Shown: positions 14,092 to 38,773 of the stretch, in pieces | Position numbering within the stretch: the first letter of the stretch is position 1 | Layout of the letters: the number at the start of each line of letters is the position of its first letter | DNA from: Pythium myriotylum | Lineage: Eukaryota > Oomycota > Peronosporomycetes > Pythiales > Pythiaceae | Length of the DNA stretch: 64,000 bases | Reading direction: 5' to 3' | Assembly (NCBI GenBank): GCA_023091665.1 | Contig: JALJCQ010000022.1 | Location: 682,001 to 746,000 of the forward strand | Position numbers and translations under genes: made by a program | Notes under the pieces: generated by a model | What the model saw: only the letters and a program-made list of their open reading frames with translations | Told to the model about the DNA's origin: nothing | Database searches by the model: none

Positions 14092-14122
<31 letters not shown>

Positions 14123-15323: not shown

Positions 15324-15349
15324 AGTCGCCGCGACGTCTCCGTCACGTA

Positions 15350-15386
15350 CAGCACTGGCAGAGCGCTGCGGGGCTAGCGGTTTAAC
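15350..15386 (-). promoter_or_regulatory. Gag-Pol -1 ribosomal frameshift signal, E1-A
   Basis: In gag frame the heptamer G TTA AAC occupies 15386-15380, two codons before the gag stop TAG (15376-15374). The pol frame is exactly -1. GUUAAAC is a known slippery heptamer (arterivirus type). Eleven bases further a hairpin can form, CAGCGCT with AGTGCTG around a CTGCC loop (one G-U pair). The arrangement is the same in all three units. Confidence 0.72.
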
Positions 15387-17344
15387 TGCCGAACGAGATC
15401 ATCCACAGTAATCCCGCCGGTCTTGAGCTTTGGGCTGAGCATCTTCATCTTCTCGGTGAAAGCACGGCAGACTTGAATCGCGTGACCAGTCACTCCACAA
15501 AAATCACACTCATGAAGTTGGAAGCAGCTTTCCTTAGTATGTCCGGACTTGCCACAATGTTCACAGCGGACCTCATTGCTGTTTCCACCAGTCTGATGAG
15601 CTTGACTTCCACCATTAGAGCCTTGCTGCCTCTGACCTGCATTGACCTTACTGGCTGCAGGAGGTGGGTCATTGCTCTCTTCCGGTTGCTTCTTGGCCTG
15701 TTTCTTAGGCGTTGGCTTCGCTTGAGAGTTCTCGTACATCTCGAGCTTCTCCTCGAGCTTGTCGATCGACTTGTACTTGCTGTAACGGAATTGAGACTGA
15801 ACAGCTTTGTCATGGAGCGTGTCGAAGAACTGCTGAATGTGATCCTTCAAATCGACCGGGATACGATCTTCGTCATCGTCGTCGTCTACACGGAAATCGA
15901 TGCGCGCGCGAAGACCTGCTGCGTTAAAGCGATAGAAGTAGTCCAGCGCAGATTCATCGGGCTTCTGAGTTAGACGATAGTACGTGAGCGTAGATGGCGT
16001 GCTCTCAGTGCAATACTTTCGATAAAAGGCCTTCATCGTGAGCTTCCACTTCTTCCTCGTTGACGAAGGGAGCTGCTTCTGCCAATACCTCGCCGGACCC
16101 GTGAGAGCGTCTACGAACGAACCGAGACGTTGGCGATTGGACCAGTTGGACAGATCAGCGATGTGAAGAAACTTCGAGAGCCACGCCTTGGCTTCTTCCG
16201 GGAAAACCTTGGCACCACTGAACGACTTCACATTGACATTCTGGATGACCGTTGTCACGTGTCGATCACGTCGTCGAGGTCCAGACACATCCGAGTCGGA
16301 ATCTTCATACATTGAAAGACCGAGCTCATCTTCCATATCTGGATGGCGAGCACTGCGCTTGACTGGCTTCTTCGACTTCTTGACTGGTTTCTTGACGCGC
16401 TTGAATGCTTCTTCGTCAGATGATTCGTCCTGTTCACCGTCGTCAGACTCGGGATCTTCTAGACGCGCGAATCCTTTCTTAGCGCCTCGAGCCTGTTTCG
16501 CCGGGGCTCGCGTGGCCGCAACTCGCTTCGTGGTATCTGGGCTCAGCGCTTGTATCACTTCTGATAGCTCATCCATCGACAACATCCCTCCGGCCGTCAG
16601 CGCCATCAGCTTCGTCGCCAGCGGGTTATTCTTTCGCTTGATCTTATCCGTGGGGGAGGAGAAGGATCCTTCATCACTGGCAAACTCCAGCTTCTTCCTG
16701 ATTGGACTCTCGAGCTGAATTTCTTCATCTGAGCTGGATTCTTCATCAAAACGTTTCATCGAGCGCGGCTTCGCCGGCTTGGTCTGCGGAGTGTGGGCTA
16801 CGTCAGCAACGACCATGTACTTCGGTTCGAACGTTGTGTCCTCCTCCCGATATTGGATAACGCTGGTCTCCCACTCATACTCGGCAAGCAGAACTGACAT
16901 CATGTAGCCCATGTCCTGCGCCATCCGTTCTGGATTCAGGTAGACTGCATCTTGGTAATTGCTTCTCCGATACAAATTGTAACCGCATGACGTCAACATC
17001 TTCTCCACAAAATCAATCGCTTCGTCAATCGTCGCGAAGTCGTAGGTGGACGCCCTCAGTCGCGAACCGGCAAAGAATGTCGCAGGCCCTACTTTCGTAA
17101 TTTCATACAGGGAAAACCAGCATTCTGAGTCGGACGGCATCTTCAACACCTGTCGTTGATACCGAAGACCGATTTCGTTCGCTTCTGACAGTCGGTACAC
17201 CCGAGTTGTGTCATGGACCGCGCTCTGAACAACGAGGCGGATCGAAACATTCTTCGGGTCTGTGACTTGACCTTGCCGCATCTCTGCCTTCTCTTCCATC
17301 TTCTCATCGTGTATCGTAACAGCTAACGGCTCCGCTCCTGGCAT
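15374..17344 (-). CDS. gag: Gag polyprotein of E1-A (656 residues)
   Basis: First ATG in frame is at 17344, only 11 bases inside the 5' LTR edge and within the presumed primer binding site. The frame stays open a further 27 codons into the LTR without an ATG, so a non-AUG start there is possible. An acidic N-terminal half of unknown type is followed by a Retrotrans_gag-like capsid region (AKAWLSKFLHIADLSNW, then the DALTGPARYW segment) and two CCHC zinc knuckles at the end (CEHCGKSGHTKESC and CDFCGVTGHAIQVC). It forms the particle and binds RNA. Gag to pol is joined by the frameshift signal at its last codons. Confidence 0.92.
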   Translation of the reverse strand: MPGAEPLAVTIHDEKMEEKAEMRQGQVTDPKNVSIRLVVQSAVHDTTRVYRLSEANEIGLRYQRQVLKMPSDSECWFSLYEITKVGPATFFAGSRLRASTYDFATIDEAIDFVEKMLTSCGYNLYRRSNYQDAVYLNPERMAQDMGYMMSVLLAEYEWETSVIQYREEDTTFEPKYMVVADVAHTPQTKPAKPRSMKRFDEESSSDEEIQLESPIRKKLEFASDEGSFSSPTDKIKRKNNPLATKLMALTAGGMLSMDELSEVIQALSPDTTKRVAATRAPAKQARGAKKGFARLEDPESDDGEQDESSDEEAFKRVKKPVKKSKKPVKRSARHPDMEDELGLSMYEDSDSDVSGPRRRDRHVTTVIQNVNVKSFSGAKVFPEEAKAWLSKFLHIADLSNWSNRQRLGSFVDALTGPARYWQKQLPSSTRKKWKLTMKAFYRKYCTESTPSTLTYYRLTQKPDESALDYFYRFNAAGLRARIDFRVDDDDDEDRIPVDLKDHIQQFFDTLHDKAVQSQFRYSKYKSIDKLEEKLEMYENSQAKPTPKKQAKKQPEESNDPPPAASKVNAGQRQQGSNGGSQAHQTGGNSNEVRCEHCGKSGHTKESCFQLHECDFCGVTGHAIQVCRAFTEKMKMLSPKLKTGGITVDDLVRQLNR

Positions 17345-17352
17345 ACGCACCA
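17338..17352 (-). other. Candidate primer binding site, E1-A
   Basis: Two bases after the LTR the minus strand reads TGGTGCGTATGC. TGG next to the LTR is expected for pairing with the CCA end of a tRNA. I cannot name the tRNA. The gag ATG lies inside this site. Confidence 0.5.
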
Positions 17353-17354
17353 GT

Positions 17355-18151
17355 TGTCGTGTGGCAGAATCAAAAACGGGCACCTGGCGTACGTAGGCTC
17401 GCTCTTGAGTCACCGACGGCAACAATATTCTCAGGAAAGGGGTGGATCTTGCGTGCTTCGAACACTCGCTTCAGACCCGGATATCACAACTTCTTTGAAG
17501 CGGAGACCCGAAACTCTGACACGACACTACAACTAGACCCTCACAAGTCTAGAGGCAGCGAGAAAGAACGGCTTGGAGACGATGAAGCTCCTGGAGAACT
17601 CCTACGGGGAACTTGGCAGGAAGCGCCGGCAAAACCACCCGGCCCTCGGCCAGACTGATCACTTCGGATCGCGACTGTACCCAAAACAGGCGGCCGATCG
17701 ACCAGACTGATCACTTCGAAACTCTTAGTAACTTCCTCGAGATACTGACGGGCTACTGTTGAGGGAGGATCAGGGGGCTTCTGCGAGAAGGAGGAAAAAT
17801 TGTGGACTGACTCCCACGGAATTAGCGGCGGAGAATCGCCCCCTTTTCCGTGGGTTATTGGGTGGTAAGCACCCGTTCCTACCTACTGAAATCTGTCAAA
17901 TATAAGGTTCCTACTCCTACTGTTTTTTATGTTAGGTTTCTAAATAAAGAGAAATACGATACCTTGTACCGCCGAGTCTGGAATACGGAATCTTGACTTG
18001 GGCGCCAGACTGTTCACTTCGTCTTGACTTGGGTACTAAGGGTACGCCAGACTAATCACTTCCTTGGGACTTGGTCGTGGACACCTTCGCCTGACTGATC
18101 ACCTAGCGCTTGCAGAAACTCATGCCCGCGGAGTCGGGGCGCTATACCACA
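17355..18151 (-). repeat. E1-A 5' LTR (797 bp)
   Basis: Same ends as the LTR at 2685. Motif copies at 17650, 17702, 18005 and 18047. A weak TATA-like TTATATTT on the sense strand lies near 17900. The outer edge cuts the protease frame of E2 at 18152. Confidence 0.92.
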
Positions 18152-23493: not shown

Positions 23494-24289
23494 TGTCGTG
23501 TGGCAGAATCAAAAACGGGCACCTGGCGTACGTAGGCTCGCTCTTGAGTCACCGACGGCAACAATATTCTCAGGAAAGGGGTGGATCTTGCGTGCTTCGA
23601 ACACTCGCTTCAGACCCGGATATCACAACTTCTTTGAAGCGGAGACCCGAAACTCTGACACGACACTACAACTAGACCCTCACAAGTCTAGAGGCAGCGA
23701 GAAAGAACGGCTTGGAGACGATGAAGCTCCTGGAGAACTCCTACGGGGAACTTGGCCGGAAGCGCAGGCAAAACCACCCGGCCCTCGGCCAGACTGATCA
23801 CTTCGGATCGCGACTGTACCCAAAACAGGCGGCCGATCGACCAGACTGATCACTTCGAAACTCTTAGTAACTTCCTCGAGATACTGACGGGCTACTGTTG
23901 AGGGGAGGATCAGGGGGCTTCTGCGAGAAGGAGGAAAAATTGTGGACTGACTCCCACGGAATTAGCGGCGGAGAATCGCCCCCTTTCCGTGAGTTATTGG
24001 GTGGTAAGCACCCGTTCCTACCCACTGAAATCTGTCAAATATAAGGTTCCTACTCCTACTGTTTTTATGTGAGGCTTCTGAATAAAGAGAAATACGATAC
24101 CTTGTACCGCCGAGTCTGGAATACGGAATCTTGACTTGGGCGCCAGACTGTTCACTTCGTTTTGGCTTGGGTAGTAAGGGTACGCCAGACTAATCACTTC
24201 CTTGGGACTTGGTCGTGGACACCTTCGCCTGACCGGCCACCTAGCGCTTGCAGAAACTCATGCCCGCGGAATCGGGGCGCTATACCACA
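23494..24289 (-). repeat. E1-B 3' LTR (796 bp)
   Basis: TG...CA ends. Motif copies at 23789, 23841, 24143 and a variant at 24185. It shares left-type positions (gaccggccacc, ggaatcgg) with the other two left LTRs. Confidence 0.92.
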
Positions 24290-24350: not shown

Positions 24351-25508
24351 TTACAGCAGCACTGCGTTTTGGGCGTCGCCAATGACTCTCGAGTCGTTAG
24401 CGCTGGCCAGCTTCCTCATGTGGTCCTTGTCTTTCAACACAGCGCCGGCTTCCTCTGGCGTCCATCTCGACCTCCCGTACGTGATCCTCATGTCAATCGC
24501 TTGTTGGCGGAATTTCGCCCACGTGCTGTCTTGAGCGAGAGTCTGGTCATCTGCGAGAACGAACATGTACTCCTTGGCACGACTCAGGGACACCAGCAAT
24601 CGCGAGGGGTTATTCTTCAAGAATCCCATTTTCACGTGACGCACCATCAAGGTGATCGTAATGTCAGCTTCGCACCCCTGGCTTGAGTCCACAGTCTTCA
24701 CTTCTACGTCTAGGAAATTCTCGTAGAGATTTTTCCACTGTAGAGCATCTTCCTTTAATCTCTTGACCTGCTCCGCGTAAGGGGAGATAACTAGGATACT
24801 CTTGCGCCACACTCTGTGCGTCATCTTGGATTGCAGTTTGAGTTGCGCCTTGATCCGCATGATCAGTTCCATCACCAGCGCTTGTTCAATCACATTCACA
24901 AACTTCTCCTCGCTCGCAGATTTCCGTCGCCCGTCAGGGTGAAAACCTTCGTTGCCCGAGTCGAGCCATATTGCAGACGGTCCTCGAGGCAGGGGCGGTC
25001 CGTTCTCGATTCCATCCCTAGACCAACTTGCGTCATCCTGCAGAGGCGGTAGCAGCATCCCAACTAGATATCCTGGAGTGTTGCTGATAGCGGAGCGCAG
25101 CGGGTAGTCGTAAAAGGGTTGCAATAGTGTCACCAAATCTGGTCCACACCGAAAAATGTCCTCCGTCGTTAGCCCCGGGAACTTCATGCCGTAAGACGCG
25201 TAACAATGCTCGAACGTGTGGAACACAGACCAATTGAGCTTGTGCCGTCTCTCATCGCCGGGGAACCTCTCAGCGAAATTTGTCGGCAGCGAGCTGTACC
25301 CCCGCAGCTGATTGGGGTCCCCTGCTAGTAGCAGCGTGTGCGTATCTTCGCGAAGAGCTTGGATCACCGCGGCTTCTGCAACCTGCGCGCCTTCGTCGAT
25401 GATCACCACGTGATTCGCTAGATGCTGATATTTCGCACTCCCCATTGTCGCTAATGTGGCGACAAGGACCTTCGCTCGAGCTAGCAAATGGTCTTCGTAC
25501 TTCTTCAT
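24351..25508 (-). CDS. UPF1-like SF1 helicase, C-terminal part with motifs II-VI, E1-B (385 residues)
   Basis: ATG at 25508 overlaps the stop of the previous ORF (ATGA at 25508-25505). Motifs: II VVIIDEGAQ (34-42), III AGDPNQLRG (62-70), IV ILVISPYAEQ (238-247), V KTVDSSQGCEADI (271-283), VI RLLVSLSRAKEY (303-314). This pattern is that of the UPF1/SMG-2 branch of superfamily 1. Motifs I and Ia sit at the end of the upstream ORF, so the enzyme is split between two frames and both parts are needed. It may be expressed by stop-start reinitiation or frameshift. The expected role is unwinding RNA or RNA-DNA hybrids for the element; this is inference. Confidence 0.88.
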   Translation of the reverse strand: MKKYEDHLLARAKVLVATLATMGSAKYQHLANHVVIIDEGAQVAEAAVIQALREDTHTLLLAGDPNQLRGYSSLPTNFAERFPGDERRHKLNWSVFHTFEHCYASYGMKFPGLTTEDIFRCGPDLVTLLQPFYDYPLRSAISNTPGYLVGMLLPPLQDDASWSRDGIENGPPLPRGPSAIWLDSGNEGFHPDGRRKSASEEKFVNVIEQALVMELIMRIKAQLKLQSKMTHRVWRKSILVISPYAEQVKRLKEDALQWKNLYENFLDVEVKTVDSSQGCEADITITLMVRHVKMGFLKNNPSRLLVSLSRAKEYMFVLADDQTLAQDSTWAKFRQQAIDMRITYGRSRWTPEEAGAVLKDKDHMRKLASANDSRVIGDAQNAVLL

Positions 25509-28500
25509 TTGGATGCCACCATGTCGGGCCGGTCAGGGTATATCCGTTCTATTAACGCCCGTCTTTTCTTCATGAGTTCGTCGAGGTAGATCCCTGCAAA
25601 CTCTTGCATGTGAGCATCACACTTTCCGAGCCTCAATATTTCATCTTCGGGCACTAGGTTCTTCTGCCGGAGCCGTCGGAGGTCTTCATCAATCGCGGCG
25701 TTCGTTTCAGACACGACTGCAATCACTTCCTTGGGGTACGCCTCACGGTGGACAGATATCGCGCGCGTCAATGTCGTCGTCTTGCCGCAGCCAAACGGGC
25801 CGCGCACTAGCATGATGCCAGTCTTCGTAACAAATTCCTCGACCACTCTCATTTGGCTTGGTCTCAGGAATAGCGACTTCGTCCACATCCTCACTCTCTT
25901 CGCTCGGGTCTGTTGAGGTCGCGGGCGTTCCTTCTGATGCATGTCCCGCATGGCAAGCGCTGTGACGAGCGGCGTAGGTCGCGATGCCGCTTGGTCTATC
26001 GCCAGGAAACGTCGCACGTAGTTCAATAGACTTGTCCTCGGAACCCACATTAAATCGAGTCTGCTTGGTTGGGCTGACGTGATACTCGCGTTCGTGACTA
26101 TAAACCACCGGGATCCAGATCTCATCAACACCCCGCGACCCAGTACCTGACGTTCGTGCAAGTATCTCTCGCCTGCCACCACCGCACCGTAATCCCATGG
26201 CGAGAGCTGCGCTTCGCAGACTTGCTGATCCATAGTCATGTCCAGAGAGAGGTATAATGTGGTCATCGAGCACAACAACGGCTGGAGATGGGTCACCGAT
26301 CTTGCACCATTGCTCCCTTGTTCGTCACCTTCGCTTCCACCGCCAGGCCATTCTCCTGACATCTGATTAGTCATCGATCCCCCTGAGAGCCTCAACCGGA
26401 CACACTGCGCATCTCGCTTGATGGGTGGCAAGTCGGGGCCTTCAGTGGCGTAGAGCATCTCGAGATGCGTCGCAAGCGCGCCCGCCAGCAGATAGTCTCT
26501 CACGCTCGTGAAATAGTCGAAGTTGACCCGTCGCATCTTGAAATATCGCCAGTGTCTACACTCGCCTTCATACTGGAAATGCGGGCGGTTCACATCGTAC
26601 GCTAGGCAGCAGTCTTTGTCCCGGCACTCTCCGTACTTGTCTGTCCACATCTCCCGCAAGAATATTGCGCGCGATTCTTCGCCACGCGAGAGGATTGTTC
26701 CGGCCAGCATTAGTTCCCTCAGCAAGCACTTGTCGACAGGGGGTGCCGGACCGTCGGGAAGACGCATTTTGTCTAGGCCGCCTTCAATCATATCTTGCAC
26801 GCGCTGCTCACTGTCCTTGTAGAACATCCTCAACTTGGAGTCTGGTGCGAGGTCACTTGCTCTCAAACGATCACATGTGTCGGCTGAGAGAACTTTCCTT
26901 GATTGGTCTGGAGCAATTCGGACGGTGATGTATTGTGGTGCACCATCGTGTGCATTTCGCCACACCACTTCGTCCTCTTCTATCATCGGCGCAGCGTGTG
27001 GTGGGTCTTGAGGTCCTCGGATCTCGTGGGATCCGCCTTTGATGCTCTCAGCGGCATGGTCTTCCAAGCTGGAGGGAGCGTGCCCCACGGAAGGGACCAG
27101 ACTGTTCACTACACTTCGACTGGCGACTGGTTCCTTGGCCAGACTGATCACTTCAGATGGAGGGTCTACTAAAAGGCCGACCAAGTTAGTTGCCTTCGCT
27201 ACCTCCGCCAGACTGTTCACTCCAGCTTGTGTGGCCTCTGGCAAATCCTCCAGACTGTTCACTTCGTCTTCACCGCCCACTAATGGGGTAGCCAGACTGA
27301 TCACTTCGGGTGCGTGGTCGGAAACTTCGTCTGCCTTGGACGAAGCTTGAGCAATCGGAACGTCGGCTGTATCTGCTGGCACGCCTTCATACACTGGAAT
27401 TGAAGGCGTTTCGTCCGTGGCACCTTCGCGTACGCTTCCTCCGGGAGCCTGCAGTTCGTGGGTCTCAGTCTCTCTAGGCGCTGGAGTTTCTCTAGTAGTT
27501 CCTGTGGTCACCGTAGCGCTGTCTTCAAGGCTCTCGCCCGCATCCGTCGCTCTGACACCGTCTCCTTGCTCTAAGGTCGTCGGCAGATTCTCTGCTTGGC
27601 CGCTCATCCCCTGGTCCGTGTCCTGCTTCGACTCTTCACTAGCTTGCTGGCTGCAATATTCCACGATGGCCGTCACCTCGCCAAGAGCCTGTGCCACGGC
27701 AAGGTCGACGTCTTCTTCATCAGGTCTGACTGGGTCATTCGTTGGTGCGTCATCATCTGACTCTTCATTCACGCCCTCGAACAAGATCTCATCTCCACTC
27801 TCGGCGACGCTCTCGACCTCCGCATTGTCAGATCGCAGGGCCAGCAGCGTCTCAGCCAATACGGCGCTTGGCATCGTGCATCCCGAGTGGGCAACGGTCT
27901 TCCCTGGCCGAGTGGCACCACCTTGGTTGGCCTCACACACAAACGGCTCGATGAGAATTCCTTGGCCTGGACTGGCTTCCTTCTCTTCCGTCGAACCACC
28001 GACTTCCTTATCGATAACTTTCAGCTCTTTCCAACGACGACGCACAGCAAACTCGGAGACTTCCAACGCTGCCGAGAGTTCTTTAATTGCTTGTCCGCGC
28101 TTCCGCTTCTCTTGCTTCATAGCTTGACGGATCTGTTGATCGTCCTTGTCCGTCCACCGCCTGGGCAGCTTCGTCGCTTCGGGCTTCCCATCACGTAAGG
28201 TGTTCAGTCGTTTATTGATGGTCACAATGGTGCGGTCACCAATGGGTACTCCATCTCGTTCTCCGAGGGCCAGGAGCTCGCTCTCTATCGCTTCGTGACA
28301 TATAGCTGCGCCCTCGTCCTTATGCGCGTGTAGAGCCTTCATCAATACGGCGTCTTCGTCGGGATGCCATACTCGGCGCGCCATAGTCAGCGTTTGTCGG
28401 TCCGTGGCCGTCCCCTGGTCGCTTGAACGGTTGCTCTTGCGACTCGAATCTCGCTCTGAGATGCTGGAAAGCTTGGTCATCACCGTCTTGTATTCTCGAG

Positions 28501-29089
28501 ATGCCCACCCGTGAGCCTGAACCTTATCAAGATACTTCGCATATATGTCTCGGTTCGAGGTCTTCGCCTTCTTCTCCGCAGTCAGAAACGCTTCTTGCTC
28601 AGGCGTCCACTTGGTGAGCTTGGGCTCTGTACTCTTCCTCAACTCTGGATCTCTTTGGCAGCGAGCTCGGCAGGCATTAGCATCACGCAATGGGTGTCCG
28701 GTAACTTCGTTGATCTTGTTGAATTCCTCAGCGAACCGGTTCCACGTCCACTTGTTGCGGTCCTTCAGCTCGTACAGGACGCGTAACGTCTTGAGCTGCC
28801 CTTCCGGCCAGTGTGAGCCAGCACTCTTCTTCGAGGCCGAACGAGCAGGGGCTTCAGCTTGGCTTCCGGCACGAGCGAGCTTTCTTGACGAGTTGACAGA
28901 AGTATCTCCTTCATCTTGAGCCGTGTGTCGAGCGGAAGTCGAGGGCGGTGGCGTTTCTTGATGCGTACCTTGCCGTGTAGCTTCTCCTTCAATTCCAGGC
29001 GGCGTCTCGATTGTGTCTTGCCGCCCTTCGTCTGAGCCCTCTACCTGGCCCTTGTCAGTCCCACGCTTGCGCTTCATGCCAGCTGCCAT
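25505..29089 (-). CDS. Four Myb/SANT-like repeats plus helicase motifs I/Ia, E1-B (1194 residues)
   Basis: ATG at 29089 (MAAGMKRKRG, possible nuclear signal). Four SANT/Myb-like segments with spaced Trp: about 92-150, 158-210, 239-300 and 309-356. An acidic disordered region follows, with repeated EVISL/EVNSL peptides that are translations of the E1 DNA motif (27097-27308). Then a Cys/His cluster (CRDKDCC, later GECRH), a beta-rich region like the insert before UPF1 cores, Walker A GPFGCGKTTT (1097-1106) and motif Ia SETNAAID. It ends in VASK with the ATGA overlap. It likely binds DNA or chromatin through the SANT repeats and brings the helicase there; that link is inference. No other retroelement of this composition is known to me. 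Confidence 0.85.
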   Translation of the reverse strand: MAAGMKRKRGTDKGQVEGSDEGRQDTIETPPGIEGEATRQGTHQETPPPSTSARHTAQDEGDTSVNSSRKLARAGSQAEAPARSASKKSAGSHWPEGQLKTLRVLYELKDRNKWTWNRFAEEFNKINEVTGHPLRDANACRARCQRDPELRKSTEPKLTKWTPEQEAFLTAEKKAKTSNRDIYAKYLDKVQAHGWASREYKTVMTKLSSISERDSSRKSNRSSDQGTATDRQTLTMARRVWHPDEDAVLMKALHAHKDEGAAICHEAIESELLALGERDGVPIGDRTIVTINKRLNTLRDGKPEATKLPRRWTDKDDQQIRQAMKQEKRKRGQAIKELSAALEVSEFAVRRRWKELKVIDKEVGGSTEEKEASPGQGILIEPFVCEANQGGATRPGKTVAHSGCTMPSAVLAETLLALRSDNAEVESVAESGDEILFEGVNEESDDDAPTNDPVRPDEEDVDLAVAQALGEVTAIVEYCSQQASEESKQDTDQGMSGQAENLPTTLEQGDGVRATDAGESLEDSATVTTGTTRETPAPRETETHELQAPGGSVREGATDETPSIPVYEGVPADTADVPIAQASSKADEVSDHAPEVISLATPLVGGEDEVNSLEDLPEATQAGVNSLAEVAKATNLVGLLVDPPSEVISLAKEPVASRSVVNSLVPSVGHAPSSLEDHAAESIKGGSHEIRGPQDPPHAAPMIEEDEVVWRNAHDGAPQYITVRIAPDQSRKVLSADTCDRLRASDLAPDSKLRMFYKDSEQRVQDMIEGGLDKMRLPDGPAPPVDKCLLRELMLAGTILSRGEESRAIFLREMWTDKYGECRDKDCCLAYDVNRPHFQYEGECRHWRYFKMRRVNFDYFTSVRDYLLAGALATHLEMLYATEGPDLPPIKRDAQCVRLRLSGGSMTNQMSGEWPGGGSEGDEQGSNGARSVTHLQPLLCSMTTLYLSLDMTMDQQVCEAQLSPWDYGAVVAGERYLHERQVLGRGVLMRSGSRWFIVTNASITSAQPSRLDLMWVPRTSLLNYVRRFLAIDQAASRPTPLVTALAMRDMHQKERPRPQQTRAKRVRMWTKSLFLRPSQMRVVEEFVTKTGIMLVRGPFGCGKTTTLTRAISVHREAYPKEVIAVVSETNAAIDEDLRRLRQKNLVPEDEILRLGKCDAHMQEFAGIYLDELMKKRRALIERIYPDRPDMVASK
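27097..27308. repeat. Cluster of five E1 motif copies inside the SANT-helicase coding linker, unit B
   Basis: CCAGACTGTTCACTACA at 27097, then copies at 27139, 27208, 27250 and 27292, alternating GATCA and GTTCA cores. In the reading frame they give EVISL or (E/V)VNSL. Spacings are irregular (42 to 69 bases). Confidence 0.85.
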
Positions 29090-30259
29090 TGTTCCGTCCG
29101 CCAGACCTGATCACTTCGCGCCGGCCTCGATAGGGTGTCTCCGCCAGACTGTTCAACTCACTTGATTTCCTCGTTCGCAGTGGAAGTTTCTTGACGCTTC
29201 AATCGAGCTCTCCCCTTCTTACACGTTCTTATACGTTCTTAGACGTCGGGGCTGGATCCTCACCAACCAGACTGTTCACTTCCGTTTCAGGGACCTCCAC
29301 CTCGTCCGCCAGACTGATCACTTCACCTGGGGCCGTTAGGTTCGCGTAAACCCTTCAGTGCGTACTTGGTCCTCTGGCTGGGATGGTTAGAAGGCCGGCC
29401 TCTCCCATTTCTTGATCGAGCCTGAAGTTTCTCGACGCGCCTTGGTGCGCCAAGCCCGCCGCTCGTTCTCGGCCTCCACCCGCGCTGCCATCTCCTTCCA
29501 TGATCACTCCCGCTTGCTGCTCCAAGTTCACACAGTCCCTTAACGTCGTCCAAGGTAATTATCGTCGGCGAAGAACATCGATTTGTTGACGGCTGCTAAC
29601 GCTTTTTTCTCACCCTCCATGCCAGCGCCGCCCGCGCTCTGTCAAGCCGTTGTCGACCACAGCGGACACGTACTCATAGGCGCTGCCATCATTCGGATAA
29701 GACGAATAGCCATGTTCACACACCGTTTCTGCTCCTTCACTTGCGTTCACCGTCATAGACACCGATTTCGACTGATCCTTCCCCTCATGGTGACCAGACT
29801 GATCACTTCACCGAAACCGACCAGACCGATCCCTAACAAGCCTGGCCAGACTGATCACTTCGCTTCCCTTGGGTCCAGTATTTAAAGCCAAGTCGCACCA
29901 ATCATCAACCAAACAGGTCTCTTGCCTCCGGCGCCATTCGTCACCGCGCTTCGCCCTACGAGTTCGAGTCGTCCCCAGTCATCTTCACATCATCAACGCA
30001 GGCCGCGCCACACTACAAAGGTGCGCTCTTCCTCTCTGACATCCATACCGCTTCGTTCCTCTCTGGCGCACGGGCCTCCTCGTCGATCACATCTCGCTTG
30101 TCATCAGTCACCTCATCTTCACCATTTTCTTCGCACATGCACAGACGCTTCCTCTCTCCTCTCTCCGCTGCATCACCTCATCCCTCTCAACCGGCGCATC
30201 AAGACTGATCCACTCGAATGAGCCCTTCAGTTCGACAACGCCGCGGCTTCTTGGCGGAT
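29090..30259. other. Untranslated spacer upstream of SANT-helicase ORF, E1-B
   Basis: Six good motif copies at 29101 (with one extra base), 29144, 29267, 29309, 29794 and 29846, and a degenerate one at 29820. Decamer array at 29217-29246 and TATTTAAA at 29879-29886. It includes 48 bases absent from unit A (near 30138-30187). No supported gene. Confidence 0.6.
29217..29246 (-). promoter_or_regulatory. Three-fold decamer with TATAAG, unit B
   Basis: Sense-strand ACGTnTAAGA three times, about 130-155 bases before the ATG at 29089; the middle copy reads TATAAGA. Candidate internal promoter. Confidence 0.35.
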
Positions 30260-30721
30260 TCAGTCCGCGTCAAACCGTCTCAACTCGCTTGTTTCTCTCG
30301 GCGGGTTCGATCCGCTCCGAGTCCTCCTAACTCTCTCGTTTCTTTCTAAGGCTTCTACGACAGGGGTGGTCAACGTCCGCGCTTCCCATACTGCTTCGCT
30401 GATCAGGCTCAACAGCAGATCACCACTTTCGCTGACACGTGCGTGCGCTCGCTTCTGTTCTTCGTCCGGTAGTTGATCAGACAGCCAGATTCCAAACATG
30501 CGCTTCACTCGCCACCTCGCCCACCACATCGCCTCAATTGTCGTCTCGCCGGACAGTCTCCGTGTCAAGACGTAGCCCCTTTCGGTCAACCCAGTGCACT
30601 GGCACCGCCTAAGGCTTGTAGCTTCCATGTCAACAATACAATATTCATTCTTGATGCATCCACCGCATACCCATGGCAGAATGCGCTCACCACAAAACGT
30701 AACTCCTTGAAACTTGTTCAT
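30260..30721 (-). CDS. Cys-rich orphan protein of E1-B (153 residues)
   Basis: ATG at 30721. Same protein as in unit A except Ala-to-Val near residue 7. Six Cys in the first 45 residues, then an aromatic-basic stretch. Unknown family. Open in all units. Confidence 0.6.
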   Translation of the reverse strand: MNKFQGVTFCGERILPWVCGGCIKNEYCIVDMEATSLRRCQCTGLTERGYVLTRRLSGETTIEAMWWARWRVKRMFGIWLSDQLPDEEQKRAHARVSESGDLLLSLISEAVWEARTLTTPVVEALERNERVRRTRSGSNPPRETSELRRFDAD

Positions 30722-31114
30722 CACATGTCAACTTCGCGATTTCTTGTGCAACCAACTCGGGTCCGCACCTCAGCATTCCGCAGCCAACTTGGGCCCCCGG
30801 CGCCGGATTCCATCGCAGGCTGTACAGTGGGTTTGATCCACCTTTCAACCCCAGAACTTGACCTTACCACGTACTCGATCCGCGTCAGGTCACTATAGAG
30901 CTGTACTTCGATTCAGCTCTTTCTTCTTCTCCTTCTCCTCATCATCTTTCCTTCCTCAGCGTCTCTCCTTCAGTCGCGGCGCTCCGCATCATCTCGCCGC
31001 GCACCTTCAGTCTCGTCCCCTCATTCTTGTGACCTCGCTCCGGCCAGACTGTTCACTTGGTCCCTTCGCCGAGCACCTTCTCACACCAGACTGGTCACTT
31101 CGCCAGGTCACTCT
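30722..31114. other. Spacer between pol and Cys-rich ORF, E1-B
   Basis: Two motif copies (31044, 31086) and the pyrimidine tract (plus strand) near 30917-30957. No gene seen. Confidence 0.5.
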
Positions 31115-34100
31115 CTACTCGTCACTCGAATCACTCTCATCGACCTCTTCCTCATGAGTAGTTTGAGCGGCCTCCTTGCGGTTCTCCCATGCCCGTCTTG
31201 CGTCGAACTCGTATAGCAGAGCGTTGCAGTGTAGATTCTCTTCCGGCTCCCATGTAGGCTCCTCGTGACCGACCCATTTGATCAAGTACTCGCGCATTCG
31301 TCTACCGTTCCTCGTCCGCTTCTTATATCGGCAGTCGACCACCTTTTCCACCTCATATTCGTCATCAACACCTTCTTCGTACCACGAATCCTCAGGCAAT
31401 AGAGCTTCGTCCAACTCGAGGTCTTGAATGCTCTCAATCTTTTCACGTGGCCTCCGCATCCTTGAGACGAATGGCTTGAGCCGGGAGATATGGATCATCG
31501 GCATGACTTGATTCTCGCTCCGATCGAACTTTAGCTTGTACACCGACTCACTGACACGCTCTTCTATCTGATATGGACCATGCCACAGGTGCGATAGCTT
31601 CCTCACGAGTCCTTCCTTGACCAAAACGTGATACAGCCACACAAGCTCACCTGGCTGATACTCCGTTCTCACCGTCGACTGCAGATTCTCGTCGGCCTGC
31701 TCGTTGTTCTTCCTCGCACGTTCTTCCATTAATTTCTGCTGAATAAATTCGGCGTGCGCCTGGGCTTGTTCATGCTGCTTTGCAATTTTCTGCCGCCATT
31801 CAAGTGCGTTTCGTTCCTTGAGCGTGCCATCCTTGGGGGGAATCGCTGCTTCTAGTTGCGTTCGTGCATCCCAGCCATGCACCAGATAAAAACTAGTCTG
31901 CTTGTGCTGTAGACTCACTGACGTGTTGAGGGCCAACTCAAGCTGCTGAACATATTCATCCCAGTTCTTCTGCTCCGCATCAGCAATATAGCACTTGATC
32001 GCCCTTACCACAGTCTGCACAGAACGTTCCTGTTTTCCATTCGCTTGCGGTCGATAAGCTAGTGTCGGGCGCTGCTTCTGATTCATCATGCGGTTGAATC
32101 GCTTGAATACAGAACTCATGAAGCGTGGGTCGCGGTCGTGTCGAATCATTTCTTGGGCCCCAAATCGCTTGAATACCCCACTCAAATACGCCTCTGCGAC
32201 GGATTGCGCTGTCGTGTCGGCCATCGGAATGAGAATTACAAAACCTGAGGAGAGGCAGATGCAACAGAGCATGGCTTCATTTCCGTTGTACGTCTTGGGG
32301 AGGGGAATCGCGAAATCCATAGCGAGCACCTGAAATGGCCTGGTCGCGACAATATTGCCACTGGACCGACCTTTGTATCGGGGCTTGCCCTTCGCAGTGG
32401 CGCAGTCTTCACACGAGGCAACATACCATTCTACATCCGCATACATGCCTCTCCAGTAGTATAGACGGCGCATTCGCTCGAACACACGCCCCACACCTTG
32501 GTGTGCACCAGCCCCGAGTTCTTCATGATAGGCGCATAATAAATCTTTCTGCAGAGTGTCCGGCACTACCAATCGCATCTTCAAAGCTTCCGATTTCCCT
32601 CCTTGGGGGGAGTAGTACAACACCCCATCTGAATCGAGCACATATAGGACAGCGATCCGCGCTACCCGCTTGAGCGCGGTCGACGAAGAGAACTCCTCCT
32701 CATTGCCCTCGAGATACGCGATTACCTGCTTGCACCATTCATCTCGGCGTTGCGCTGCCGCCACTCGTCGGAACCTCTCCACCTGAGCTTGACTTAGCAT
32801 CTCCCCGCTCACATGCAATGGTGTCCATTCTCTGGCCGGCTTTGATCCATCATCCTCGAATGTCCCAATGTCAGCTGCGTTCGACCCTTCTTTTTGCTTC
32901 TTCGTGTGGCTCTCCTTCTTCGACCTCGTCCGCTTTCTCGTGTCGACAACAAACACTTCGTAGATTGAACCGTCATACAATCCCGCCACCTGGCGCCCGC
33001 TCGCCACTTTGACTGGCGCGAATTCGCTCTTCTCTTCCAACGCTGACTGCGATTCTTCACCAGACTGTTCGCTTGACTCTGCACGGGTGGTAGTCGAATC
33101 CAGACTGATCAGTTGACCTGAATTTGGCTCAGCCTTGTGGCCAGACTGGTCAACTCGCCTTACCATTATAGTGGCCCCCGGTTCCGCCTCCAGCTTTCCT
33201 TCGTACACGTGTTCATCATCCACGCGGTACAACAACTCCGGGAGAGTGTTCAAAAGCTCCAAGTCGTGCAAGCGCGCATCATCAGTGACCGAGCCTCTCG
33301 ACTGGGATCGCATGGCCTCCCTGGTGAGGAAGTCTGCCGCCTGGTTGTACTTACGCGCGATGTGAATGAAACTCACACTGTCGAACAAGGTGAGCTGCTC
33401 TTTTGCCCGATTCGGCCAGACTTGTAGCGACGCTTGATTGCACCGAAGGTCACCGTTTACCTGCCCGATTACCAGGCGGGAGTCGCCACACACGAGCACC
33501 TCCTTGATACCCCGCGTCGTTGCCAGTTCGAGTGCGCCGAGCAGGCCGTGATATTCACTGTCGTTCACGGTAAGCCCTTCCTTCACATCATATTCCGCGG
33601 CAACCACCTTCCACTCAGGCAGTTTCCATAGGATCATACCAAACGTGCCAGACCGGGTACCCTTCAACTTGACTGCCCCATCGAACGTGAGCACGTATCC
33701 GTCTGCATTTCTTCGTAGATCAGGGAAGGGTCGAATGACTGGTATATCTTTAATTGTCTTCATCGGCGCGATGTCTTCGAGTATTGCATCCATTTGTTCT
33801 GCAGGTGTTATCGATGCTGCCAACACTGCCATCAAACCGGCGGGAGTCTCATCGCTTCGAATAATTGTCAAGCTCCATGGCGACAACATGGCGGCCCACT
33901 GGATGGTACGACCGGTCAGACTCTTCGACGTGAAGACCCACTTCATGGTAGAGTATCTCGCGTACACTACAATCGGTTGGCCGAGCAGGTAGTGACTCGC
34001 GACGTGGAGCGTCTTCAGCAGAGCTAACACTTCTTGTTCTGCAGGCGTATACCGAGTCTCTGCATCCTTGAAAACTTTACTCACAAATCGAACTGGATGT

Positions 34101-36742
34101 AGAATCCCGTCGTGCTCTTGGCAAACTGATGCTCCGAAAGCCCACTTGTTCGTGTACAGCACTATAACAAGCTCTCGTCCGCGTTCAACATGGCGCAGAA
34201 GAGGCGCGTCGCATAGCTTCATCTTCAGTTCTTCGAAGGCTCTCTTTGCATGATCAAGTTGGCTCCCATCTCTCAGTCTCAGGTCAGTGACCTCATACAG
34301 GACTGCCGCATAAGTCGCAAAGTTGCTGATAAACTTGTGGTAATAAATCAGGCTGCCGATGAATCGCTGCAACCCTTTCTGCGTCGACGGAAACGGCATC
34401 TGCCTGATCGACTCGAGGTTTCTTGGGGCGCTCATCAACCCTTCTCGCGAGATCACGTGACTGAGGAACTCAACTGACTTTTTTCCAAACGAACTCTTCC
34501 GCAAACTCACGGTCACTCCCCAGTATTGAAATGCATCGAGCAGACACTGCAGCATCACGTTCATCTCCGACCACGTCGTTGCCCCAAAGGTGATATCATC
34601 AATGTATGATCGGCGCTTGATCACCGGCAGTACATCCGACTCCTGTGGCTCACCTCGATGAAATACGTCTCGCTTCAGCGGTACGTCAATGTCGATGCGC
34701 TCCTTCTCTCGTTGGGCCTCCATGTCATCTAACTCGTCCTCCGTCCACCCGACAGCCTTGAATCTCACATCACGGTTGCTGAGTCGTCTCACCATGCTCC
34801 ACAGCGCGTTATCAATCATGCGCTGGTAGATCTGTGGGGCATTCTTCAACCCTTGAGGCATCCTCGTCCATTCGAAGTGTCCGAGCGGGCATATAAATGC
34901 AGTCACAAGTCGCGCGCGGACCGTTAAAGGTACAGCCCAGAATCCGCTCGCATTATCCAAGGAGCAAAACCACATGATCCCTTCAAAATTGTCGAGCAGA
35001 TCATCTATCAGTGGCATCGCGTACACCATCAGCTTCGTTAGTCGATTCACCAGACGATAGTCGATGCAAAGGCGGATGTCTTTCCCGTTCTTCTTCAGCA
35101 CAATGACGATCGGTGATGCCCATGGTGAGTTCGAATATCTTATCAAACCTTGTCGGAGAAGGCCGCGCAGTAACTCATACAATCTTCCCAGCAGGTGCGG
35201 CGGCACTCGTCTCGCGGCTTGAGCGATCGGCTTCGCGTCCCCGACGTCCACGTCACACACGACTCCTTTCGCTGGCGGCGGTAGAGCGTTCCCGGAGCTA
35301 ATAAAGCTAGCGGACCTTGCTTCCAACGTTTCTCTGATCATCTCAATCTCCTCGGCCGTCGTCTCCTCGTCGCCGATGTCAGCTTCACTCATGTCGACTT
35401 CCACCAGCGGGGCCTCGTCAAACTCAGGTAGCAACGCAAGCTGCTCTTTCATGCTCTCAACTGACATCTCTACCCCCTCATGGACGTAGACTTCTCTTGC
35501 AAACTTCGACTGATCCAGATCTTCAGGGGGGGGGGGGGGTTCGTCCAGCATGCAAACCTGGGAAGACGCTCGCTCACCCGCCAGACTGTTCACTTCAGTT
35601 GCTCCCGCTCTGCCCTGGACCAGACTGATCACTTCGGCCTCTTCATGATTGAGACATTCCGCCAGACTGATCGCTTCGGTGACCGCGCCTCTATTCGGCT
35701 CCGTACTCGCCTCTTTAGTGGCCCCTCCTTTGCTCGACTCCAGACCGATCACTTCGAGGCGGGTCTCCCCAGCAACCAGCACAGCAACGTCGCTGCCACG
35801 CAGGAGCGGCATATTCACAGCCAAGCGCACCGCGTCATACGAAGCCGCATACGCCTCACAGCGCAGATCATCATAACTCAGCAGCGGCAACGCATCTTCG
35901 TCAGGCACTTCACACCGCTTCTTGCCCAAGTCGATCTTCAGCCCAGCGCACATCATGAAGTCGGTGCCGAGAATAATTAACGAGTGAGCTTCAAACTCAG
36001 CCACCCACATCTCGACTTCGTACACCACGAACTCTCCCAGCCGGATCTTCACCACGACCTTTCCGTGTGCTTGCATCGGTTCCTCGCTCACACCGAAGAA
36101 TTCACTCGAGTCCTCGAACGCCCGCACTCTCAACCCCAACTTACGTGCCAAGTTGGTGTGTAACAGACTGATGTTCGCTCCCGAATCCAGCATCAACGGA
36201 ATCTCGAGTCCTTCAACAGCACCATGCACGAAGGCTTGTATCTTCTCGTTCGTTGACAATTCGTGGTTCTTCCACCACCCTCGTCGTTCATCACCAACGA
36301 GACGAATGTGAGTTACCTTTCTTTGCAGAGATATATCTCGAGCACCATTTGGCATCTTCATATCTTCTTCATCAGCATCTTTGTCGCAAGCGCCCTCATC
36401 ACCTTCTTCAATTGGCTCAATTGGGCACCATAGCACATGCAACTCTTCATCTTCATCACCAACTGCTTCTCTCATATATACATCTTCACATACACAGTTT
36501 CCATCACTTGTTTCTTCTTGTTTCTCATCCACAGTCGACACTACCGATTCAAACACCGCAGGTAGCGTGACATCCTTGACTGTATCTTCATACACGTTCC
36601 GTTCTTCATGCACAGTGTCATCATAACTTGTTTCTTCATGTTTCTTCGCTCCATTTTCCACGTGAACACTTTCTTCATCAATGTAAGGCGCCTTTTGTTT
36701 CTGGTATTTCTTCGATTTGCGCCGGATCTTCTTCACATGCAA
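31115..36742 (-). CDS. pol: Pol polyprotein of E1-B (1875 residues, intact)
   Basis: Same domain order as E1-A, numbered 5 lower after the shorter Pro run: protease, reverse transcriptase with an insert of roughly 45 residues before YIDD, decayed Ty3-type RNase H, archaeal-type RNase H, HHCC and DDE integrase, chromodomain. Entered by -1 frameshift from gag at 36799-36805; the listed start is a TTG, not a real initiation codon. The RNase H to integrase linker differs from unit A in a cluster of residues around 1220-1265. Fully open, so E1-B may be active. Confidence 0.95.
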   Translation of the reverse strand: MHVKKIRRKSKKYQKQKAPYIDEESVHVENGAKKHEETSYDDTVHEERNVYEDTVKDVTLPAVFESVVSTVDEKQEETSDGNCVCEDVYMREAVGDEDEELHVLWCPIEPIEEGDEGACDKDADEEDMKMPNGARDISLQRKVTHIRLVGDERRGWWKNHELSTNEKIQAFVHGAVEGLEIPLMLDSGANISLLHTNLARKLGLRVRAFEDSSEFFGVSEEPMQAHGKVVVKIRLGEFVVYEVEMWVAEFEAHSLIILGTDFMMCAGLKIDLGKKRCEVPDEDALPLLSYDDLRCEAYAASYDAVRLAVNMPLLRGSDVAVLVAGETRLEVIGLESSKGGATKEASTEPNRGAVTEAISLAECLNHEEAEVISLVQGRAGATEVNSLAGERASSQVCMLDEPPPPPEDLDQSKFAREVYVHEGVEMSVESMKEQLALLPEFDEAPLVEVDMSEADIGDEETTAEEIEMIRETLEARSASFISSGNALPPPAKGVVCDVDVGDAKPIAQAARRVPPHLLGRLYELLRGLLRQGLIRYSNSPWASPIVIVLKKNGKDIRLCIDYRLVNRLTKLMVYAMPLIDDLLDNFEGIMWFCSLDNASGFWAVPLTVRARLVTAFICPLGHFEWTRMPQGLKNAPQIYQRMIDNALWSMVRRLSNRDVRFKAVGWTEDELDDMEAQREKERIDIDVPLKRDVFHRGEPQESDVLPVIKRRSYIDDITFGATTWSEMNVMLQCLLDAFQYWGVTVSLRKSSFGKKSVEFLSHVISREGLMSAPRNLESIRQMPFPSTQKGLQRFIGSLIYYHKFISNFATYAAVLYEVTDLRLRDGSQLDHAKRAFEELKMKLCDAPLLRHVERGRELVIVLYTNKWAFGASVCQEHDGILHPVRFVSKVFKDAETRYTPAEQEVLALLKTLHVASHYLLGQPIVVYARYSTMKWVFTSKSLTGRTIQWAAMLSPWSLTIIRSDETPAGLMAVLAASITPAEQMDAILEDIAPMKTIKDIPVIRPFPDLRRNADGYVLTFDGAVKLKGTRSGTFGMILWKLPEWKVVAAEYDVKEGLTVNDSEYHGLLGALELATTRGIKEVLVCGDSRLVIGQVNGDLRCNQASLQVWPNRAKEQLTLFDSVSFIHIARKYNQAADFLTREAMRSQSRGSVTDDARLHDLELLNTLPELLYRVDDEHVYEGKLEAEPGATIMVRRVDQSGHKAEPNSGQLISLDSTTTRAESSEQSGEESQSALEEKSEFAPVKVASGRQVAGLYDGSIYEVFVVDTRKRTRSKKESHTKKQKEGSNAADIGTFEDDGSKPAREWTPLHVSGEMLSQAQVERFRRVAAAQRRDEWCKQVIAYLEGNEEEFSSSTALKRVARIAVLYVLDSDGVLYYSPQGGKSEALKMRLVVPDTLQKDLLCAYHEELGAGAHQGVGRVFERMRRLYYWRGMYADVEWYVASCEDCATAKGKPRYKGRSSGNIVATRPFQVLAMDFAIPLPKTYNGNEAMLCCICLSSGFVILIPMADTTAQSVAEAYLSGVFKRFGAQEMIRHDRDPRFMSSVFKRFNRMMNQKQRPTLAYRPQANGKQERSVQTVVRAIKCYIADAEQKNWDEYVQQLELALNTSVSLQHKQTSFYLVHGWDARTQLEAAIPPKDGTLKERNALEWRQKIAKQHEQAQAHAEFIQQKLMEERARKNNEQADENLQSTVRTEYQPGELVWLYHVLVKEGLVRKLSHLWHGPYQIEERVSESVYKLKFDRSENQVMPMIHISRLKPFVSRMRRPREKIESIQDLELDEALLPEDSWYEEGVDDEYEVEKVVDCRYKKRTRNGRRMREYLIKWVGHEEPTWEPEENLHCNALLYEFDARRAWENRKEAAQTTHEEEVDESDSSDE
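35526..35539. repeat. Poly-G tract, 14 bases, in pol linker, unit B
   Basis: Shortest of the three. Encodes a 5-Pro run and keeps the pol frame. Confidence 0.95.
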
Positions 36743-36768: not shown

Positions 36769-36805
36769 CAGCACTGGCAGAGCGCTGCGGGGCTAGCGGT
36801 TTAAC
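36769..36805 (-). promoter_or_regulatory. Gag-Pol -1 frameshift signal, E1-B
   Basis: GTTAAAC at 36805-36799, stop TAG at 36795-36793, hairpin CAGCGCT/AGTGCTG at 36769-36787. Same as in unit A. Confidence 0.72.
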
Positions 36806-38763
36806 TGCCGAACGAGATCATCCACAGTAATCCCGCCGGTCTTGAGCTTTGGGCTGAGCATCTTCATCTTCTCGGTGAAAGCACGGCAGACTTGAATCGC
36901 GTGACCAGTCACTCCACAAAAATCACACTCATGAAGTTGGAAGCAGCTTTCCTTAGTATGTCCGGACTTGCCACAATGTTCACAGCGGACCTCATTGCTG
37001 TTTCCACCAGTCTGATGAGCTTGACTTCCACCATTAGAGCCTTGCTGCCTCTGACCTGCATTGACCTTACTGGCTGCAGGAGGTGGGTCATTGCTCTCTT
37101 CCGGTTGCTTCTTGGCCTGTTTCTTAGGCGTTGGCTTCGCTTGAGAGTTCTCGTACATCTCGAGCTTCTCCTCGAGCTTGTCGATCGACTTGTACTTGCT
37201 GTAACGGAATTGAGACTGAACAGCTTTGTCATGGAGCGTGTCGAAGAACTGCTGAATGTGATCCTTCAAATCGACCGGGATACGATCTTCGTCATCGTCG
37301 TCGTCTACACGGAAATCGATGCGCGCGCGAAGACCTGCTGCGTTAAAGCGATAGAAGTAGTCCAGCGCAGATTCATCGGGCTTCTGAGTTAGACGATAGT
37401 ACGTGAGCGTAGATGGCGTGCTCTCAGTGCAATACTTTCGATAAAAGGCCTTCATCGTGAGCTTCCACTTCTTCCTCGTTGACGAAGGGAGCTGCTTCTG
37501 CCAATACCTCGCCGGACCCGTGAGAGCGTCTACGAACGAACCGAGACGTTGGCGATTGGACCAGTTGGACAGATCAGCGATGTGAAGAAACTTCGAGAGC
37601 CACGCCTTGGCTTCTTCCGGGAAAACCTTGGCACCACTGAACGACTTCACATTGACATTCTGGATGACCGTTGTCACGTGTCGATCACGTCGTCGAGGTC
37701 CAGACACATCCGAGTCGGAATCTTCATACATTGAAAGACCGAGCTCATCTTCCATATCTGGATGGCGAGCACTGCGCTTGACTGGCTTCTTCGACTTCTT
37801 GACTGGTTTCTTGACGCGCTTGAATGCTTCTTCGTCAGATGATTCGTCCTGTTCACCGTCGTCAGACTCGGGATCTTCTAGACGCGCGAATCCTTTCTTA
37901 GCGCCTCGAGCCTGTTTCGCCGGGGCTCGCGTGGCCGCAACTCGCTTCGTGGTATCTGGGCTCAGCGCTTGTATCACTTCTGATAGCTCATCCATCGACA
38001 ACATCCCTCCGGCCGTCAGCGCCATCAGCTTCGTCGCCAGCGGGTTATTCTTTCGCTTGATCTTATCCGTGGGGGAGGAGAAGGATCCTTCATCACTGGC
38101 AAACTCCAGCTTCTTCCTGATTGGACTCTCGAGCTGAATTTCTTCATCTGAGCTGGATTCTTCATCAAAACGTTTCATCGAGCGCGGCTTCGCCGGCTTG
38201 GTCTGCGGAGTGTGGGCTACGTCAGCAACGACCATGTACTTCGGTTCGAACGTTGTGTCCTCCTCCCGATATTGGATAACGCTGGTCTCCCACTCATACT
38301 CGGCAAGCAGAACTGACATCATGTAGCCCATGTCCTGCGCCATCCGTTCTGGATTCAGGTAGACTGCATCTTGGTAATTGCTTCTCCGATACAAATTGTA
38401 ACCGCATGACGTCAACATCTTCTCCACAAAATCAATCGCTTCGTCAATCGTCGCGAAGTCGTAGGTGGACGCCCTCAGTCGCGAACCGGCAAAGAATGTC
38501 GCAGGCCCTACTTTCGTAATTTCATACAGGGAAAACCAGCATTCTGAGTCGGACGGCATCTTCAACACCTGTCGTTGATACCGAAGACCGATTTCGTTCG
38601 CTTCTGACAGTCGGTACACCCGAGTTGTGTCATGGACCGCGCTCTGAACAACGAGGCGGATCGAAACATTCTTCGGGTCTGTGACTTGACCTTGCCGCAT
38701 CTCTGCCTTCTCTTCCATCTTCTCATCGTGTATCGTAACAGCTAACGGCTCCGCTCCTGGCAT
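36793..38763 (-). CDS. gag: Gag of E1-B (656 residues)
   Basis: ATG at 38763, 11 bases inside the LTR border. Identical in layout to unit A: acidic N-terminal half, capsid-like region, two CCHC knuckles. The residues match unit A throughout as far as I compared. Confidence 0.92.
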   Translation of the reverse strand: MPGAEPLAVTIHDEKMEEKAEMRQGQVTDPKNVSIRLVVQSAVHDTTRVYRLSEANEIGLRYQRQVLKMPSDSECWFSLYEITKVGPATFFAGSRLRASTYDFATIDEAIDFVEKMLTSCGYNLYRRSNYQDAVYLNPERMAQDMGYMMSVLLAEYEWETSVIQYREEDTTFEPKYMVVADVAHTPQTKPAKPRSMKRFDEESSSDEEIQLESPIRKKLEFASDEGSFSSPTDKIKRKNNPLATKLMALTAGGMLSMDELSEVIQALSPDTTKRVAATRAPAKQARGAKKGFARLEDPESDDGEQDESSDEEAFKRVKKPVKKSKKPVKRSARHPDMEDELGLSMYEDSDSDVSGPRRRDRHVTTVIQNVNVKSFSGAKVFPEEAKAWLSKFLHIADLSNWSNRQRLGSFVDALTGPARYWQKQLPSSTRKKWKLTMKAFYRKYCTESTPSTLTYYRLTQKPDESALDYFYRFNAAGLRARIDFRVDDDDDEDRIPVDLKDHIQQFFDTLHDKAVQSQFRYSKYKSIDKLEEKLEMYENSQAKPTPKKQAKKQPEESNDPPPAASKVNAGQRQQGSNGGSQAHQTGGNSNEVRCEHCGKSGHTKESCFQLHECDFCGVTGHAIQVCRAFTEKMKMLSPKLKTGGITVDDLVRQLNR

Positions 38764-38771
38764 ACGCACCA
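38757..38771 (-). other. Candidate primer binding site, E1-B
   Basis: TGGTGCGTATGC two bases after the 5' LTR on the sense strand; it contains the gag ATG. Confidence 0.5.
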
Positions 38772-38773
38772 GT

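Follow-up and report, generated by a model that had tools for sequence, protein, structure and literature searches.

A third gene in a Ty3/gypsy element

The window, a 64,000-nucleotide stretch of the oomycete Pythium myriotylum (contig JALJCQ010000022.1, here C22, positions 682,001 to 746,000), comes from a 58.7-Mb genome, the one genome on which our whole analysis is based. A unit of ~21 kb is present three times across it, and each unit carries one minus-strand long terminal repeat (LTR) element, E1, giving the copies E1-A, E1-B and E1-C. E1 is a 16-kb chromodomain-bearing Ty3/gypsy LTR retrotransposon whose sense order is gag, pol, ~2 kb in which no gene was recognised, and a third gene encoding SANT/Myb-like repeats and a helicase. 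Here we describe this gene and a short DNA word dispersed through the element that carries it.

In E1-B the third gene appears as two minus-strand open reading frames (ORFs). The N-terminal part (25505..29089, 1194 residues) holds the SANT-like repeats, a linker and the start of the helicase with its Walker A motif GPFGCGKT, and the C-terminal part (24351..25508, 385 residues) holds motifs II to VI of a superfamily 1 (SF1) helicase and stops ~60 bp short of the 3′ LTR. A preliminary description of this DNA had placed both ORFs inside the E1-B LTRs, downstream of pol and on the same strand, with Walker A in the first and motifs II to VI in the second. Coordinates and Pfam agree with this: a hidden Markov model search found AAA_11 at the end of the 1194-residue ORF (6e-10) and both AAA_12 (3e-20) and AAA_11 (3e-13) in the 385-residue ORF, all above curated cut-offs. 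The two ORFs are present as described there, but the gap between them is damage. They are a single gene, broken in the window copies, since an uninterrupted 1586-codon frame occurs at four other loci (C22:654790, C22:810042, C22:788599 and C15:370148; two of the four were read, with frames taken as they stand, unmended). Of 11 copies read, two are open and nine, including all three in the window, are broken.

The core features of a UPF1-like SF1 helicase are found: AAA_11 and AAA_12 above cut-off, and motifs I to VI aligned with those of relatives. Among proteins of solved structure, those closest to it in sequence include SEN1, ZNFX1, UPF1 and IGHMBP2, and its sequence marks it as a UPF1/SEN1/IGHMBP2-type SF1 helicase. 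AAA_12 and AAA_11 fit far better than Viral_helicase1, although the latter is still above cut-off at 1.3e-6, and the named best matches in these profile and sequence comparisons are cellular types. UPF1 itself carries an N-terminal Cys/His domain, to which the 1194-residue part gave no Pfam match at E values up to 1.

Ahead of the linker, the protein has four tri-helical SANT/Myb-like repeats, each anchored by tryptophan (28019..28813, minus strand; residues ~93 to 357, limits drawn by eye). Tryptophan spacing and helix pattern agree with the SANT/Myb label of the preliminary description, although the repeats stay below the Pfam cut-off. Myb_DNA-bind_6 matched at E values up to 5 in all four family members scanned, best in the window protein. 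A relative of the C22b/C3 type, 24% identical, keeps three of the four anchor tryptophans and has tyrosine at the other. Four SANT-like repeats are present in the C3 protein (1658-codon frame), one with tyrosine in place of the anchor tryptophan, and the C26 protein has five when read by eye.

The rest of E1-B, all on the minus strand, is that of a Ty3/gypsy element. The 3′ LTR (23494..24289, 796 bp, reading TGTGGTATAG...CCACACGACA in sense) and the 5′ LTR (38774..39567) have TG...CA ends and are 97.7% identical. The gag gene (36793..38844, Retrotrans_gag) is given as an open frame that begins within the 5′ LTR, the coordinates marking the frame and not the start codon, and pol (31115..36742) encodes aspartic protease, reverse transcriptase, RNase H, integrase and chromodomain in Pfam. 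The pol-helicase interval spans 29090..31114; a small ORF within it (30260-30724) was rejected as a gene, with a ratio of nonsynonymous to synonymous rates (dN/dS) of 0.52-0.63, no domain, and no counterpart found in the related C22b subfamily. A sequence resembling a primer-binding site, TGGTGCGTATGCCAGGAGC, starts two bases past the 5′ LTR in sense. For the corresponding TGGTGCGTATGCC there was no matching tRNA gene at 14 loci checked and no Rfam match at eight of those. A 12-mer of this region, CTGGCATACGCA, also recurs about every 985 bp in long runs on contig C7 (516841-548590), where one unit checked matched neither a tRNA nor Rfam.

Perfect 4-bp target duplications flank four of the seven E1 copies examined outside the window, all different (gtcg, actc, agac and gcaa), and these four insertions lie at separate genomic places. 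In the other three, one end could not be located (C30 and C19) or the 5′ end is doubtful and the flank mismatched (C14); at C30, a foreign LTR-like stretch of a C26-type element occupies the expected 3′ LTR end (L033 325-1001). The window copies have no target duplication, as expected for duplicated or recombined copies. Genome-wide LTR matches were scored for 40 of 70 candidates. Together, pol, paired LTRs and target duplications identify E1 as Ty3/gypsy.

Copies, selection and history of the helicase gene

The genome holds at least 19 E1-type helicase loci at ≥90% identity, fragments counted. Within the window, E1-A (2685..18151, minus strand) has a helicase gene with different frame damage, and E1-C (44923..61006, minus strand) has frames identical in layout to those of E1-B. 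The preliminary description had stressed that the frames are kept in two of three copies. This is so for E1-B and E1-C, but the three copies are tandem duplicates, so their agreement carries scant weight and the informative copies sit elsewhere in the genome.

We estimated dN/dS by the Nei-Gojobori method in 13 pairwise copy comparisons. The RecA/helicase core gave 0.046-0.095 in 10 of the 13, at dS of 0.15-0.93. The SANT-like part gave 0.17-0.39, apart from one value of 0.80 that rests on 18 changes, and the linker 0.25-0.70, making the linker protein the least constrained region in most comparisons. The ratio was 0.14-0.18 when the window gag and pol were compared with C1 and the window pol with C15. 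The helicase gene is thus under purifying selection, and it is an inherited part of the element. The multiple loci, separate target duplications, low dN/dS and a gene order found in two distant subfamilies all bear out the earlier proposal that the element brings its own helicase. dS is unequal between regions of one gene, so E1 copies are probably mosaics.

Two related subfamilies have the same arrangement. In C22b, gag (~50% identical to E1) and pol (74%) precede the helicase (35-38%), and C26/C30 has gag, pol (57-62%) and the helicase (~32%), followed by a repeated stretch of ~0.95 kb that we take for its LTR, with ends undefined; the C30 copy shows rearrangement about a nested element. The pol-then-helicase order in E1 and both of these subfamilies indicates that the helicase gene is old in the E1 lineage. 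Identity between E1 and C22b is 77% for reverse transcriptase, 85% for RNase H and 87% for integrase, against 24% for the SANT-like part (C22b/C3 type). By these figures the third gene would either diverge much faster than pol or have been swapped between lineages. What is apparently one ~7-kb LTR element (L009/L010 and L015/L016, LTR repeats of 304-308 bp) is also seen at the helicase loci C3 and C30.

Outside the genome's own copies, a full-length query (P0001) found one weak match. With the helicase core as query, 53 matches came from 7997 scored, and among these only P0003 was close (995 residues, on a 22-kb contig, 36% identical over 85%); it shares 36.5% identity with the C26 protein across 802 columns. 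The other core matches were 21-39% identical, with the upper values over short parts. A P0057 core query gave no match, nor did P0003 against viral contigs.

Dispersed words in E1 and its relatives

The E1 sense strand shows a repeated GAAGTGATCAGTCTGG or GAAGTGAACAGTCTGG, which we summarise as the word AAGTGAWCAGTCTGG. Its exact 14-base core occurs 57 times in the window, each time within one of the three E1 spans and in element sense. E1-B has 18 core sites: three in the 3′ LTR (23789, 23841, 24143), three in the 5′ LTR (39069, 39121, 39421), five in the pol-helicase interval (29267, 29309, 29794, 29846, 31044), two in pol (35581, 35620) and five in the helicase linker (27097..27305, minus strand; 27097, 27139, 27208, 27250, 27292), where they are in frame and read EVISL, EVNSL or VNSL. 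The 15-mer AAGTGAWCAGTCTGG is found 379 times in the genome, and the reversed word not once. Near misses also occur: a 13-kb stretch at C15 has 15 exact, three one-mismatch and three two-mismatch sites of a 16-base word.

The word changes more slowly than its surroundings. At sites exact in the window copy, other copies differ at 8 of 1134 motif bases; for the remaining bases of these stretches the figure is 1515 of 24640, so the rate is approximately ninefold lower in the motif (up to seven copies, not all for each stretch; LTRs in four, the pol motif in one). The Fisher p value of ~1e-20 is only indicative, since sites were chosen as exact in the window copy and the comparisons share ancestry. 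In the C1 copy alone, 1 of 224 motif bases differs against 380 of 4089 others. The constraint is seen in LTRs, non-coding DNA and the linker, and we therefore rejected the motif as a mere peptide repeat. Close spacings in the C1 copy cluster, with nine of 14 at 40-42 bp and two at 52; the rest are 25, 27 and 69.

The C26/C30 subfamily has a different word, ATGACAGTGATCG. In 11.4 kb there are 23 sites with at most two mismatches, distributed over both strands, and five of nine close spacings are 51-52 bp. Exact 13-mers of this type number 61 in the genome (reversed, none); grouping by eye gave six clusters with helicase matches, and these account for 45 of the 61. Between C26 and C30 plus C33, none of 231 motif bases changed, against 371 of 12241 other bases. 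In both E1 and C26, a distinct form of the gene goes with a distinct dispersed word that changes slowly.

The sister subfamily C22b probably carries a third word, AGTTARCACTCTG, shared with C3. It has seven sites within two mismatches in 14 kb, in sense in C22b, including three pairs exactly 42 bp apart, and such pairs arose in none of 100 shuffles. At a homologous pol position, one-mismatch forms of the E1 word in E1 correspond to the C22b word in C22b. The exact 13-mer AGTTAACACTCTG of this word occurs four times in the genome. All three subfamilies have in-frame linker sites, read by eye as EVISL/EVNSL, EVNTL and DDSDR. Counts within one mismatch are 18 in 13.1 kb for E1, 19 in 10.7 kb for C26 and 5 in 14 kb for C22b, so that a dense element-specific motif is found in E1 and C26 and not in C22b. 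Background was rejected as a source of the motif, as reversed-pattern controls gave zero and the best one-mismatch counts in six helicase-free stretches were 3, 3, 3, 3, 2 and 2. A 41-bp tandem repeat, near the 42-bp spacing of E1, lies upstream of a distant helicase relative at C13 (L018 1450-1596).

The window also holds features beside the E1 copies. Its last bases (62650-64000) are a perfect inverted repeat of 19105-20455 (1351 nt), so the tandem array reverses near the right edge, and more E1 copies lie on the opposite strand at C22:746-812 kb. Between E1 units, and duplicated along with them, is a gene that matches the Crinkler N-terminal domain PF20147 (1.7e-22; 20641-22425, minus strand), which repeats at 42057-43838 and as a cut frame at 3-1616; the domain scan covered the first copy. 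A Crinkler-type gene is consistent with an oomycete host. Adjoining the 3′ LTR of E1-B, an AT-rich stretch (22816-23470, minus strand) has a 130-residue ORF that by eye contains a segment like an adenovirus-type cysteine protease, and it is possibly a remnant of a polinton-like element. Next to the 5′ LTR of E1-A is a fragment of a different element, with Ty3-type gag and aspartic protease (18142-19613, minus strand).

Proposed self-recognition, its rivals and known systems

Retrotransposons are usually viewed as passive targets of silencing that depend on host factors. We tentatively suggest, at somewhat less than an even chance, that the E1 third gene encodes a self-recognising protein that binds its own word in element DNA and counters silencing. 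The predicted SANT/Myb-like array would bind the word in the DNA of copies of the same element, perhaps with paired sites on a single helix face given the 40-42 and 51-52 bp spacings. The attached UPF1/SEN1/ZNFX1-type helicase could then act at these sites on nascent RNA, RNA-DNA hybrids or silencing ribonucleoproteins, preventing the silencing of the copies or driving their transcription. SEN1, ZNFX1, UPF1 and IGHMBP2 act on nascent RNA, RNA-DNA hybrids or small-RNA pathways, and the step we favour, itself unproven, is that the bound helicase would remove silencing RNA or R-loops from the element's own copies. New specificities would arise through joint change of protein and word. More tentatively again, E1 may carry the retrotransposon equivalent of VANDAL/VANC, a system with the helicase as effector in which protein and word change together between subfamilies and the element's own copies are kept expressible. 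Among the roles proposed in the preliminary description, chromatin targeting through the SANT repeats now appears favoured because of the element-specific DNA motif, which that description overlooked; resistance to RNA decay and unwinding of element RNA gained no specific support.

Several observations weigh against self-recognition. The link between word and protein is an association within one genome, with binding and function inferred from sequence, and many E1 motifs lie in coding DNA, whereas VANC motifs are mainly non-coding. Myb_DNA-bind_6 reaches 20 bits against a Pfam cut-off of 22.9, a sequence search with the SANT-like part matched no solved structure, and a single-sequence structure model was poor (predicted local distance difference test score 51), with fold matches that were not significant. 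Three core dN/dS values are higher, on few changes (C22-C12a 0.157, C12a-C12b 0.236 and C22-C12b 0.382). The spacing statistics are weak. The C22b word is weak on counts: AG-rich words there also reach 7 (shuffle top 5), the 100 shuffles averaged 1.08 sites and gave up to 6, and its one-mismatch sites are no denser than in the helicase-free controls. Those controls are short pieces of 2.4-6.9 kb, among which two seem to be copies of the same element, and helicase-free describes the pieces, not whole elements. Finally, five more helicase-bearing loci, mostly fragments (C13, C9, C23, C31 and C3b), had no clear word.

The sites lie in LTRs, before the helicase gene and in genes, where their binder could be a host transcription or chromatin factor acting on an enhancer or insulator array, with the helicase serving separately, for example in reverse transcription of a 16-kb RNA. 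We consider this unlikely, as the E1 and C26 words differ within the same genome, which a shared host factor would not need, and the six helicase-free stretches lack comparably dense arrays. Rather less probable is a helicase that works on RNA, shielding element RNA from decay or suppressing RNA silencing, with the word as an RNA tag. Such a role would suit the nearest solved relatives and the sense orientation of every exact E1 core found in the window and of the C22b sites, and insect retrotransposon SF1 helicases showed weak silencing-suppressor activity, according to the available part of PMC6338049. Use of the C26 word on both strands and spacing near integral DNA helical turns (on weak statistics) argue instead for recognition of DNA.

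A C26-type LTR-like stretch within the 3′ LTR region of one E1 copy, and the clustering of E1 copies on contig C22, would fit a protein that binds the word in resident elements and steers new copies into or beside them. That cluster is largely segmental duplication of the ~21-kb unit, however, and the four target-duplicated insertions lie at separate places, which makes tethering very unlikely. A captured host fragment carried as a neutral passenger, which would agree with nine broken copies of 11, is barely credible. The preliminary description had named a one-off, neutrally evolving fragment as the outcome that would overturn it; we found multiple loci, dN/dS far below 1, four open frames and a gene order common to three subfamilies, and the low dN/dS led us to reject this candidate.

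A selected helicase gene with a subfamily-specific, constrained word makes E1 a testable case of a retrotransposon marking its own DNA. If self-recognition holds, sequence-specific anti-silencing would extend from DNA transposons to LTR elements, and the subfamilies would offer a natural series of proteins and words for studying joint change of DNA-binding specificity and targets.

E1 resembles other chromodomain-bearing Ty3/gypsy elements (Metaviridae) in its LTRs, gag, protease-reverse transcriptase-RNase H-integrase-chromodomain order and short target duplications, and differs in its 16-kb length, third gene of ~1580 residues and element-specific motif array. It shares the AAA_11/AAA_12 SF1 core with SEN1, UPF1, IGHMBP2 and ZNFX1, which are distant, and adds an N-terminal SANT-like array and an acidic linker. 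Neither an SF1 helicase in a retroelement nor an enzymatic third ORF is new. Insect retrotransposons carry SF1 helicases with motifs kept, which the available parts of PMC5563155 and PMC6338049 report to be of plus-RNA virus origin and fused to proteins of long interspersed nuclear elements or to Copia fragments; the E1 helicase is UPF1/SEN1/IGHMBP2-like, in its own gene and with SANT-like repeats. LTR elements of bdelloid rotifers have an additional enzymatic ORF after pol, as E1 does, but of another enzyme: ORF3 is an exonuclease or esterase with no significant departure from neutrality reported, and the available part of PMC5408684 mentions no motif array. The open-access literature searched yielded no description of an LTR element whose third gene encodes a UPF1/SEN1-like helicase with SANT-like repeats, nor of one with a co-varying motif array, which is not proof of absence.

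The closest likeness to the proposed arrangement, drawn from motif features and not from protein homology, is to VANDAL/VANC. According to the available part of PMC5735166, the VANC21 motif is short, dense, in one orientation, bound by the element's own protein, altered in step with that protein and different between VANDAL subfamilies; PMC10398659, in the part available, names Spm TnpA and MURA as further cases. E1 shares with these a short, dense, element-specific motif in one orientation that varies between subfamilies. It differs in being a retrotransposon, known here from sequence alone, with a SANT-like and helicase protein, motifs also in coding DNA and, in C26, on both strands.

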